From NCBI GenBank assembly GCA_015039315.1, contig WIDE01000121.1, positions 32,067-96,066 of the forward strand: 64,000 nt of DNA. Reading direction: 5' to 3'. This DNA is from Clavulina sp. PMI_390 (Eukaryota > Basidiomycota > Agaricomycetes > Cantharellales > Hydnaceae). Both the position numbers and the translations under genes were made by a program. Each line of letters opens with the position of its first letter. Position 1 is the stretch's first letter. The notes under the pieces were generated by a model. It saw only the letters and a list, made by a program, of their open reading frames with translations. It was not told where the DNA came from and made no database searches. Positions 13,480 to 18,589 of the stretch are shown here, one piece after another.

Positions 13480-16400
13480 CTACTGCACGTAGAGAGCAAG
13501 CGTTGTCAGCCCAGTGTCCAATGCCATCGTCACATCCTCATCCGACCCAATGGAGATATAATCCCCTTCATCATCCACATACTTGATCTTGAGCATTGCA
13601 TCTGGTGCCCGATCACCTCCACACAGCTTGATCTTCTTGTGTACCTTCTCTGCCAGGTCATCGTACGTCACATCCCGTGGGACGGCAATCATGAACAAGT
13701 CCGTCTTGTAATGCACCTTGATCTTGACAGGCGGCTGGCCTGCCACGGTGATAGGCGTGATAGGCGAGACCGCAGCAGAAACATGCTGGCTCGCTACGCT
13801 GCCCTTCTTCTGGTGCTGCTGATACCCGTACGCTCCCGGGGGCGCAGTAGGTGCCTTTGTCCCTTGCCTTAGCACCGATCCCACGTTCGAGTCGCTAGAC
13901 CCATATGGCGTGAGTGGGCTGATCGTGCCGCCATGCTGATCATTCCCAGACGATGCAGAGCTATCGTGCGAGGCCCCCGAGAACTGCGAGCTGCCGCTTC
14001 CACGCTTGTTGGTACCGCCATTGCTCGTATCGCCCTCAACAGTAGTCATGGACGCCGTCGAGCTCCACTCGCCAACCGTGCTGGAAGCAGCGATGCTCCC
14101 GCTGACACTGCGAACCGTGCTCGATGTGCTCCCATAGCGCATCGGCGGCTGGTTCGGAAGTGGTGGCGCACCTTGACCATATGGTCCACGCGGCATGGCA
14201 GCCTGCGCAGGTGTACTCGTCGCCCGTGTTCGCGGCATGCCTTGCTGCTGCTGCTGTTGATATTGCTGAGGCATGGGTCCAGTGGGCGTCTGCCTCCCAT
14301 TCGACATAGGAGTCGTCGCTGCCCTCGCACGCGCCAGTGCAATCTCATGTGCGTCTTGCTCCTGCTCAGAGTAAGCATCAGCCAAACGCACCGAGCTGAA
14401 CTGGGAGCGGAGCCCTGGGCGCTGCTGCTGAGGCCCTGGCCCACCACCAGGTGTCATGGGGTACTGGCCCGAAGGGGTGATGCGCCCACCAAGTGCGCTG
14501 GTCGAGCGGGGATAGCGCTGGCCGCGAAGCGTCGCCTCATCCACAGGCGTGCCTCGGACAGGCGATCGGTCATCGTCATCAAACATGGCACCCCCAGGGC
14601 TTCGTGACGACGCATAGGCGTTATTGAGGTCGGCATCACCAAGGAAGCGCGACAGATCCTTGGAGCGGGTAGGGCCACCAGACGTGCTCGAGATGGATGG
14701 CCCACGTGTATGAGGATAACCCATGGCAGGGCCCGCAGAGAGTGGACCACGATCCATCTGGGGGAGCTGAGAATCGCTATGGTTCGATGGTGGCTGCGAA
14801 TAATGGAGCCTCGAAGCCGACATGGGTGTGTTCCCAGTATTGGGACCCATATACGAGTGACTGTGATGAGGCATGGGCGGCATGCCCATCGAGGTCACAT
14901 TCGGCGTCGATCCACCACCAGCAGACATGGACAAGCTGCTCATACTTGGGCGGCTGACAAGGCTGCCCGTGCTGGACGTGCGGTCGAGCTGCAACTGCAT
15001 CATGCGCTGCTCCTCCTTCTCGCGCTTGCGCTGGGCCTTCTGGGCCTTATGCTTCTCAAGCTCAGTGCGCACCAGCTCGTTAATCGTGCCCTCCCATCGC
15101 TTCATCACCTCCTCCGAACGACACTTGAGCGTGAAGAACTCCAGACCCTCGTCGCCGCGCCACCACACCTCGACGGCATAGTAACCAATGTCCTTGTCCA
15201 TCTGCGCGACTGCCTTGGTGACGTTGGAGAGGAAGATCCGACCCTTGAGCAACAGTGGCGTCGTCTTCTTGCGCGCCGCGGCAGATTTGTCCATGTACGC
15301 AGGCACCGCGGCTGTCGAGTTCTTCTTGCTCAGGATAGAGCTCTTCTTCGATGTGACACTGCTACGGTCGCCTGCCATATCAGTGCTTTCCTTGCAACAC
15401 AGAATGATACGCTCGAAGAGGAAGACGTGATAGTCGCGGTCAACCTCGCTCTTCGTCACTGTGAACAACTCATCGAGTCGTAGTGATCCGAAGCCCGCAA
15501 TCGCGTGCCCCTTCCAGTCGACCACGCGACGCTCAAGGTTCTTCAGCGTCACGTAGTTATCGGACGCAAGGTTCGCCTCGTTCATGCGGGCTGCAATACG
15601 CTTCGCAGCTGCGAGACCATCGGAAAGCTCATTGTAATGCTCCCAGGAAGGCTCGCAGTATTTTTGGAGCGTCTGATCAATCAAACCAAAATCGGGTCGT
15701 AAATCAGTGGATCTGACCCTGGATTACTGCAAGATCATGACTTACCTCAAGCAACAAAGGGTACTTGGTAATCCGCTGCACAGGCTTAATTAAAAAGGCC
15801 TGGAGTTCCGTCTTGGCCTGCAGTGCCGGATTTGCAGGCTGCTCGTCGTCATGGCATGGCAAAATGTTTTGAAAATCAAGTGGGAATGGATGCCAGGGGC
15901 AAGAGAGATCCAGAGCGCGAGAGAAAAGGTCGAGGCCGGGATTATACACGCGAGGAAACGAGGCAGGGGCGTGCGCGCGCGGGCCGGCATGTCGTAACGG
16001 GGCGATGGATGGGGGAAAGGATCGACCGTCGAATTGTTGTGAGACGTTGCCACATCGCGGCACGTTTGAATTCGATGTGGAGGCGACAGGGAAACAGCAG
16101 TGGTGGGCGGGAGCAGACGATGATAGTGGTGCGTCGTAGGCGAAATGACGTGGGATAGGGTGGGGTTGGTAGCGGTAGTGGAATGAAGGATCAACGCGCG
16201 GCGAAGGACGGGACGGTGATCCAAAGACGATTCATCGGCACGGAACGCGAAGAGCGAACGAAGCACGGGGCGTGGACGGCCGACGACACAAGTAGAAGAG
16301 AAGCGAGAATGACCGAGTATCCCAGGTGATCGAAGAAGATTCCGGGAGGAAGATGCGGGGGTCGTAGTTATTGTCGTATTGGCGATTGCAAAATGTGGGA

Positions 16401-18589
16401 GTGGCGAGCACGCGAGCAATAGAAATCCACCAGATAGAGAGAAAAGCAAGGGCCCATGCAATACCACGACAAAAACAAGAGGGGAAATAAGAATGGAGTC
16501 GTCAGTAATTGCTTTCCCAATTTCATGATTCATCGCGCAAAAAACAAAATACGATAAAAGAAAAAGCTGAAATGAGTGCTCCAGGCGTTCATCATGGAAC
16601 CCAGAGGCGGGGATAGGCTGGTCATTCATGAAGGATCATGGAATGACATGATCGAGCGAGGGGCTTTCGCTCGGATTAATCTTCATCAGAAGCGAGAGTC
16701 CGATAGACTCTGTGCACATGCGATGACAGCCACACACAAGGTCGATCCCCCCGCGCATCATCCGCAACTGGGCCCGACACGAGGAACAGCGAAGATGCAA
16801 AAGCAAAATGGAACATCTCCCGCCCAAAAGGTGTTCCCGCAAGTTGCCGACGGGCCGAATCATTTCATTGTTCGAGCCCAGCCAGTTATGGGTTGCAAGG
16901 GGCAAGCCCTCCAGCCTCCCCTCGCTCTCTCAAATTAGGCTGGGCGGAACACGGGACGCCAAGATAGGCGGTGGTGACAGATAGATAACCGATCACAAAC
17001 ATAGGGGGAAAGAACTACGCACCATTAGCTCTTCGGCATACTCGATGGCGAGGTCGCTCGCGGTTGCAAAGTTGGCGCAGAACGGCTCGTAGGCCGAGAA
17101 CATGCCTTCCTATAAATGGTAATACCACGAAAAGTGAAGTGGCACACGACGCCACACAATCGCATGACATGACAGGGTCGATCAGACGGAGCGGAGCCAA
17201 AGTCAGCATGATACACATAGGAGAAAGGAATAGCAGCAGTTGCCACGGAACATGCGGCAAAAAAAATACAGTAACAGCAGCACGTACGTTAGCGACAAAG
17301 ACGTTGCCCCAGCGCTGGTTGGGCCATTTCTGCTCAGCAGTTTGCTCGAGCACGATAGAGAAACGACGCTGCATATCGAGCAGCTCATTAATGTTCATGA
17401 AAATGTTGTGGATGAGGGTGGGCGAGCAGATGTTCTGCTGTCGGAGTTGCATTGCAAAGTCCTACAGATTGGTAACATGTCCTCGTTGTCAGCCCTGGAC
17501 TGTCAAAATGGAGCGCGATCGAAGGCAAGGAAGGGAAAAGGGCCTGCTACCCGCCGCGGATCGCGGCCCGCGCACACGACCCTCTCAACCAGCGGGAGCC
17601 AGAAGAAAGAAGAAAAAGAAGAGCAATCTCAGATGTGGACGCCACACATACCTGGAGGACCTGCAGATCGTTGACAAAGTTACGTTCGCTTTCGACAAGC
17701 TCGGCGGCTGCCTTTTTGCGGCTGGACCACTTTCTCCTGGCAGCCTCGTCCAAGCCTTCGAGCTCTTCGTCATCTTCCATTTCCGGCTCTTCGATGACAG
17801 CCTCTTCATCGAAGCAGTCTTCTGGGATACGGTCGATGAGGAACTGGACGGTGCTCATCACCTAATCAGGCAATGATCGAGGTGACGACGGGGGGTAGGA
17901 GTCATCAGTAAAAGGCTAGATGTAACGAGGAGGGGCCAGAGCACTAAAAGCAAACAAACCTTGACGAAGCCATTCATGTTGCGCGGACCAGCCGTCAGGA
18001 TGAGGTCGCCGATGGTGAACAGCTCGGGCATGTTCATCCATTCAGGGACCTCCCGGTTGAGTTTTGTGAGAGCGATGATAACTTTAGCAGTACATTGCTT
18101 GGCGAATTTGGGATCTTGGGCATTAAAGTCCCGTGGGTCGACGTTGAGATTGGTGACTTTGTACTGCGAGGGGATGGGGAGGGAGTTGAGGAGGAAGACG
18201 AGGGGGGAACCAAGGCAGAGGACATCCCACAGGGTCTGGACAGGGTCTGAGGAACGGCGCTGGGCGTTAGACATGCCATCGTTCATGCGAGATGGCGCGG
18301 TGGATGTAGAGGGGTCTGAGGAGGTCGAGCCTGATGGCCCAGCGGTCGCGGGGGTGGTTGTGTTGTCAGCAGGGGCGTCGCGCTCGATGGCGGTTCTGCG
18401 GGCGAGTTCAAAGTATGGCGCAAACTCGCGCAGACGCTGCAGACGCGATGTGATCGCTAGACATTGCTGGTAGAGAGGGACATTTTGTGATCCCTGTTTC
18501 TTTAGATTGTTCGTGGCAGGCCCGAGTTCTGCCTGGGCGAGGATAACAGAGGGCGCAGGGGACGCAGTAGACTTCTTCCTAGTTGCCAT
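13480..18589 (-). CDS. cdc24: Cdc24-type Rho guanine nucleotide exchange factor (CH-DH-PH-PB1)
   Basis: Activates Cdc42-type GTPases at sites of polarised growth. Six exons join in frame: 18589-17960, 17861-17652, 17461-17288, 17109-17023, 15838-15746 and 15672-13480, giving 1128 residues. A calponin-homology (Cdc24-CH) domain lies at about 40-205. The DH domain runs from AAELVESERNFVNDLQVLQ through LIKPVQRITKYPLLLE (about 250-430). A PH domain (DELFTVTKSEVDRDYHVFLF) lies at about 455-620. A long disordered Ser/Pro/Gln-rich region with a short poly-Gln follows. A C-terminal PB1 domain (KIKVHYKTDLFMI...YVDDEGDYISIGSDED) occupies about the last 85 residues and would bind a Bem1-like scaffold. 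Intron 4 (15839-17022) is exceptional, see the separate entry. Start MATRKKSTASP chosen because the CH domain follows directly. Confidence 0.93.
15839..17022 (-). other. 1184-nt cdc24 intron with giant AG exclusion zone
   Basis: The donor follows EELM (ATG|GTGCGT at 17022) and the acceptor is GAGCAG before codons for PANPALQAKTEL; both sides are phase 0. The other cdc24 introns are 73-190 nt. On the minus strand a perfect TACTGAC lies at 16507-16501. From there to the acceptor no AG occurs (16511 to 15844 contains no CT on the plus strand, 668 nt). By the known logic of AG exclusion zones this marks a distant branch point, about 663 nt from the 3' splice site. Confidence 0.75.
16501..16507 (-). 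promoter_or_regulatory. Predicted distant branch site TACTGAC
   Basis: Exact match to the fungal branch consensus. The last upstream AG lies about 10 nt before the branch A (16502). Confidence 0.6.

Follow-up and report, generated by a model that had tools for sequence, protein, structure and literature searches.

Distant branch sites followed by AG exclusion zones have been described in animals. The zones measure 381 nucleotides (nt) at human PTB exon 11, 438 nt at nPTB, 287 nt at GABBR1 exon 23 and 590 nt at Fugu PTB exon 11, where the predicted branch site lies at -566 (PMC1431707). Alpha-tropomyosin belongs to the same class (Gooding et al. 2006, PMC1431707). In intron 4a of vertebrate OGDH the branch sites are near the donor and are used to select between mutually exclusive exons, and the zone is about 280 nt long (PMC7969005). 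In the fungus Schizosaccharomyces pombe the mean branch-to-acceptor distance is 12 nt, with about 40 out of some 5250 introns reaching 30 nt, and it is 39 nt in rap1 intron 2 (PMC9508853). The portions of these three papers available to us contained no AG exclusion zone longer than that of Fugu PTB. A fungal zone of the size described below was not found in the titles and abstract beginnings searched, a collection that leaves most subscription papers outside its coverage. Here we describe intron 4 of cdc24, a gene encoding a regulator of cell polarity, on the minus strand of a 64,000-nt stretch (hereafter the window; positions 32,067-96,066) of contig WIDE01000121.1 from the coral fungus Clavulina sp. 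PMI_390 (Cantharellales). Its sequence suggests that the branchpoint is distant and is followed by an AG exclusion zone, a reading to which we assign a probability of about 0.68.

On the features given in those portions, the intron resembles the animal exons in having a long AG-free zone up to the acceptor, its best branch motif and a pyrimidine tract at the 5′ end of that zone, and AGs upstream. Unlike them, it is fungal, its zone is 668 nt long as opposed to 590 nt in Fugu PTB, and its branch site is predicted from sequence. With the branchpoint-distant introns of S. pombe it shares a fungal host, a long gap and three factor families that were matched in the Clavulina genome, but its predicted span is 663 nt and not the 39 nt of rap1 intron 2. 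As in OGDH intron 4a, whose zone is kept in most species compared, the predicted branch is far from the acceptor and the AG exclusion zone is long. Unlike in OGDH, about 520 nt separate the donor from the branch motif, and the intron has no known alternative exon.

Intron 4 of cdc24 and its AG-free tract

The gene had profile matches to CDC24 calponin-like, RhoGEF, PH_10 and PB1. Its six exons joined into a single frame of 1128 residues, with five introns that were all in phase 0 (Table 1; coordinates are those of the window). The deposited Clavulina protein, hypothetical protein DL93DRAFT_2172329 (99% identity over the queried part), shares the donor of intron 4 and excises the AG-free tract as an intron. 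An earlier note, made from the sequence alone, had placed this intron inside the DH domain, and the RhoGEF match bears this out: it spans profile positions 2-180 (118.9 bits) in the spliced frame and 2-104 on read-through, which adds nine residues and then a stop. Since the match then ends at position 104 out of 180, retention of intron 4 would be expected to abolish the exchange factor. The further suggestion of the earlier note, that slow or regulated splicing would gate an active Cdc24, finds no support here.

The last AG before the zone is at 16513-16512 and the next one at 15843-15842, leaving an AG-free run of 668 nt (16511-15844), of which 657 nt lie 3′ of the motif TACTGAC. The earlier note had counted about 660 nt up to GAGCAG, which agrees, and had expected a dozen or more AGs, which is if anything low, as composition predicts 18.2 (exact log10 P of finding none, -9.5). 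GA, for which composition also predicts 18.2, occurs 23 times in the tract, while AT (43 vs 29.9 expected) and CG (65 vs 44.7 expected) are in excess. The tract is 37.6% C and 29.3% T. Upstream of the zone, AGs occur in intron 4 at about normal frequency (17 vs 23.3 expected in 502 nt).

Runs of N aside, no dinucleotide is absent over a longer distance than this anywhere in the window, whichever strand is read. The run is also the longest AG-free one in a 257-kb sample of the 39.4-Mb genome, consisting of the window and 20 further stretches; the next complete ones were 297 and 285 nt, and another of 330 nt was truncated by the end of its stretch. When ten dinucleotides were counted in this sample as five strand-complementary pairs, the longest runs free of the other pairs were 284 nt (CC/GG), 262 nt (AC/GT), 179 nt (GA/TC) and 148 nt (TG/CA). 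Because these reach 284 nt at most, the runner-up AG-free runs appear ordinary and the cdc24 run does not. When an exponential was fitted to the other AG-free runs of at least 150 nt, 14 in number, it predicted 0.0008 runs of at least 668 nt per 257 kb and 0.12 per 39.4 Mb. Fitting the 81 others of at least 100 nt gave 0.000001 and 0.0002, respectively. Locally, the run is therefore far from chance, and genome-wide it is probably one of the extremes. No tandem repeats were found in 15800-17060, and a repeat search returned only short direct and inverted pairs, attributed to chance. Scans of plasmid, viral and prokaryote contigs found no relative, and those of the viral and prokaryote contigs are uninformative either way, as these collections are not fungal.

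The predicted branch site and the acceptor

Only 4 nt of the zone precede TACTGAC. This motif contains the sole CTRAC of the 1184-nt intron, and its position at 16507-16501, just past the last upstream AG, was confirmed as the earlier note gave it. The candidate branch A (16502) is nucleotide 521 of the intron and lies 663 nt from the end of the CAG at 15839. Such motifs are rarely so near an AG: among 30,847 AGs, 20 were followed by a TACTRAC within 13 nt and 416 by a CTRAC lying fully within 14 nt. Under a scanning model, the zone would thus be expected to start just here. It is longer than the minimum of 100-150 nt used for exons of the animal class, has a good branch motif near its 5′ end and, by eye and unscored, a pyrimidine tract adjoining that motif. 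Downstream of TACTGAC there is no CTRAY, and the nearest thing to a branch site close to the acceptor is a weak TTGAT at 15879.

CTRAY motifs were found in all four other cdc24 introns, with the A at 43 nt (and at 4 nt) from the intron end in intron 1, at 27 nt in intron 2 and at 31 nt in intron 5. In intron 3 a CTGAC has its A at 93 nt and a CTGAT at 72 nt. An AG-free run of 203 nt (17314-17112), partly exon, also overlaps intron 3. In intron 2, splicing would have to skip an AG about 6 nt past the branch A (17483), which is consistent with the animal model, where AGs within 12-15 nt of the branch may be bypassed (PMC1431707, in the portion available).

Under the proposed mechanism, the first step of splicing would use the branch A at 16502, and in the second step the spliceosome would choose the first acceptable AG downstream of it. 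Any AG arising in the intervening 657 nt would then act as a premature acceptor and break the DH domain, and for this reason selection would purge AGs as far as the AG cluster at 15842-15818. The use of 16502, the linear search and the purifying selection against AG are all three inferred.

Three AGs in frame with one another follow the zone: the GAG at 15842, the CAG at 15839 and a further CAG at 15818. The earlier note had put the acceptor at GAGCAG. The deposited protein speaks against this, as it joins 17023 to 15817, using the third AG (15819-15818), and lacks the seven residues PANPALQ. The length of the loop in homologues speaks for it. Among the 120 alignment rows listed out of 534 homologue matches, the segment from EGMFSAY to KYPLLLE has 60 residues in 115, and four others have 58, 59, 59 and 63. 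The deposited protein has 53, and the seven residues gained from the CAG at 15839 make exactly 60. The domain model hardly discriminates between the two acceptors, as the RhoGEF score is 118.9 bits with the CAG at 15839 and 116.1 bits with that at 15818. We favour the CAG at 15839, the second AG and 3 nt past the first, as the likely acceptor. The seven-residue gap in the deposited protein (15838-15818, minus strand) may be a mis-annotation or an alternative acceptor.

In S. pombe, Sde2, Cay1/Cactin and Tls1 promote the splicing of introns with a long branch-to-acceptor gap (PMC9508853, in the portion available). The Clavulina genome had profile matches above the Pfam cut-off for Cactin, Sde2 and Hep_59, the family of Tls1, as well as for Prp18, Fyv6/FAM192A and Slu7. 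The presence of Cactin, Sde2 and Tls1-family genes makes a distant branch site possible without proving it.

It is still debated whether the 3′ splice site is located after branching by a linear search, by diffusion or by a ruler. Fungal introns had been thought to require short branch-to-acceptor spans. Sde2 is already required in S. pombe at 24-39 nt (PMC9508853, same portion). A natural fungal intron purged of AG over some 660 nt would support a long directional search on evolutionary grounds, and cdc24 intron 4 would be a ready substrate for testing it. If the reading is true, it suggests that the search of a fungal splicing machinery along RNA can extend well beyond the usual distance. 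We regard it as unlikely that the whole set of consequences holds together, namely a spliceosome search of more than 650 nt from the branch site to the first acceptable AG, the longest natural branch-to-acceptor span known to us, the first fungal AG exclusion zone of such a size, a genome-wide intron class, and splicing at the DH junction that is rate-limiting for active Cdc24.

Evidence against a distant branch site, and competing explanations

Comparison with other introns relied on a home-made ab initio gene finder. A loose version yielded 2500 introns, but supported flanks for just 20. A tuned version yielded 182 introns, 96 with supported flanks, and distances were taken from the 72 of these that measured 45-300 nt and contained no N. 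The set is noisy: in cdc24 itself the acceptor of intron 2 was misplaced, intron 4 was split at a different acceptor, 16567, and intron 5 was missed as such. In the 72 introns, the last AG ahead of the acceptor lay at a median distance of 32.5 nt from it, with a 95th percentile of 75 nt and a maximum of 132 nt. For GA the median was 14 nt and the maximum 80 nt. A branch-like motif was present in 56 and absent from 16.

Several observations weigh against a distant branch site in cdc24 intron 4. The acceptor was the first AG past the motif in just 31 of those 56 introns, although many of the motifs or introns may be wrong. The deposited protein bypasses the first two AGs, contrary to a strict first-AG rule. 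The weak TTGAT has its A only 37 nt from the end of the CAG at 15839. CTRAC is weakly concentrated at the starts of long AG-free runs generally in the 257-kb sample, with two in the first 20 nt of the 15 runs of at least 150 nt, cdc24 included (about 6.7 per kb), and five in those of the 67 runs of 100-149 nt (about 3.7 per kb), as compared with 1.3 per kb overall. As this enrichment is weak, a genome-wide class of AG-exclusion introns is suggested but not shown. Lastly, an apparent 350-nt intron in another stretch (L003:4846-5195, minus strand; GTGAGT ... TTTTCCAG), which is followed by an open frame without a Pfam match, contains the 297-nt AG-free run, and the only CTRAC of that run is about 90 nt from the acceptor. 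AG-free runs can therefore outgrow the branch distance.

The last case also lends itself to the alternative that fared best, in which TTGAT would be a branch site at normal distance and the AG-free tract either composition and luck or the relic of a former distant branch site. The position of TTGAT is compatible with the distances of 27-43 nt in introns 1, 2 and 5 of cdc24, and the heavier of the two tail fits would allow 0.12 such runs per genome. Nevertheless, we consider this explanation unlikely. Composition alone makes the tract very improbable (log10 P = -9.5, as above), TTGAT does not fit CTRAY whereas the other four introns each carry one, and the start of the zone beside the sole CTRAC is left unexplained.

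It is quite unlikely that the tract is an internal promoter, other regulatory DNA or the host of an alternative exon, with the loss of AG being secondary. Upstream regions in fungi can be pyrimidine-rich, a likeness to the C and T content of the tract that counts for a promoter, but such a content does not account for AG being absent while GA is found 23 times, and the tract contains six ATGs. An exon is favoured by the open frame of 279 codons (16629-15790), part of which was taken as exon by the crude gene finder. The earlier note had warned that this frame could be mis-annotated as a gene. The frame exists, but the AG-free tract is absent from the deposited Cdc24 protein, which removes it as an intron. 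The frame had no Pfam match, and the only Rfam match was far under the gathering score. Because dinucleotide shuffling of the tract likewise left a frame fully open in 147 out of 2000 trials, the open frame needs no separate explanation. A standard acceptor inside the tract is impossible, as there is no AG. The behaviour of the crude finder does call for caution, as an AG-free intron may be called as an exon by gene finders.

RNA structure has been reported to shorten the branch-to-acceptor distance in some yeast introns (PMC9508853, in the portion available), but a fold pairing 16478-16457 with 15861-15839, which would draw the acceptor close to the branch site, was mostly rejected and is the least probable explanation. 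When 16515-15830 was folded, the arms formed 21 pairs with probabilities of up to 0.72 (arm duplex -27.0 kcal/mol, matched in 7 of 500 shuffles). This pairing almost disappeared when flanks were added: three longer contexts gave 0.17, 0.00 and 0.32 expected pairs, whereas a slightly shorter one gave 19.5. Pairing with the 3′ arm was matched or beaten by 57 out of 300 segments drawn at random from the window, the region was no more stable than shuffles (z = 0.67; 14 of 20 at least as stable), and folding would render AG exclusion unnecessary.

Feature coordinates and other AG-free runs

Table 1. Features of the cdc24 locus of Clavulina sp. PMI_390, in window coordinates.
Feature	Position	Strand	Remark
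cdc24 gene (CDC24 calponin-like, RhoGEF/DH, PH_10, PB1)	13480..18589	-	
cdc24 exon 1, coding	18589-17960	-	
cdc24 exon 2, coding	17861-17652	-	
cdc24 exon 3, coding	17461-17288	-	
cdc24 intron 3, 178 nt	17110..17287	-	without AG before acceptor
cdc24 exon 4, coding	17109-17023	-	
cdc24 intron 4, 1184 nt	15839..17022	-	donor GTGCGT at 17022, tandem acceptor GAGCAG
AG exclusion zone, 668 nt	15844..16511	-	0 AG vs 18.2 expected
TACTGAC, candidate distant branch site (A at 16502)	16501..16507	-	only CTRAC of intron 4
Pyrimidine-rich stretch immediately 3′ of TACTGAC	16466..16500	-	by eye, unscored
TTGAT, weak proximal branch-like motif	15875..15879	-	rival branch site
GAGCAG tandem acceptor	15839..15844	-	first two AGs past zone, mutually in frame
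Third in-frame CAG	15818..15820	-	acceptor implied by deposited protein
cdc24 exon 5, coding	15838-15746	-	deposited protein: 15817-15746
cdc24 exon 6, coding	15672-13480	-	

The window contains 602 Ns, and those at about 120-740 represent an assembly gap or a masked stretch. Ten of the next-longest AG-free runs of the sample were inspected, and Pfam scans covered the frames that follow six of these. One frame matched above the cut-off (Mito_carr), one below it, and four had no match. With one of six matching above the cut-off, most of these runs are not established as introns. A 222-nt run (L010:3014-3235, plus strand) has a CTGAC 12 nt in and a layout like that of cdc24, with no gene evidence around it. 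Two adjacent AG-free runs of 189 and 172 nt lie in the window at 42752-42564 and 42185-42014 on the minus strand, and the Mito_carr match follows the first of them.

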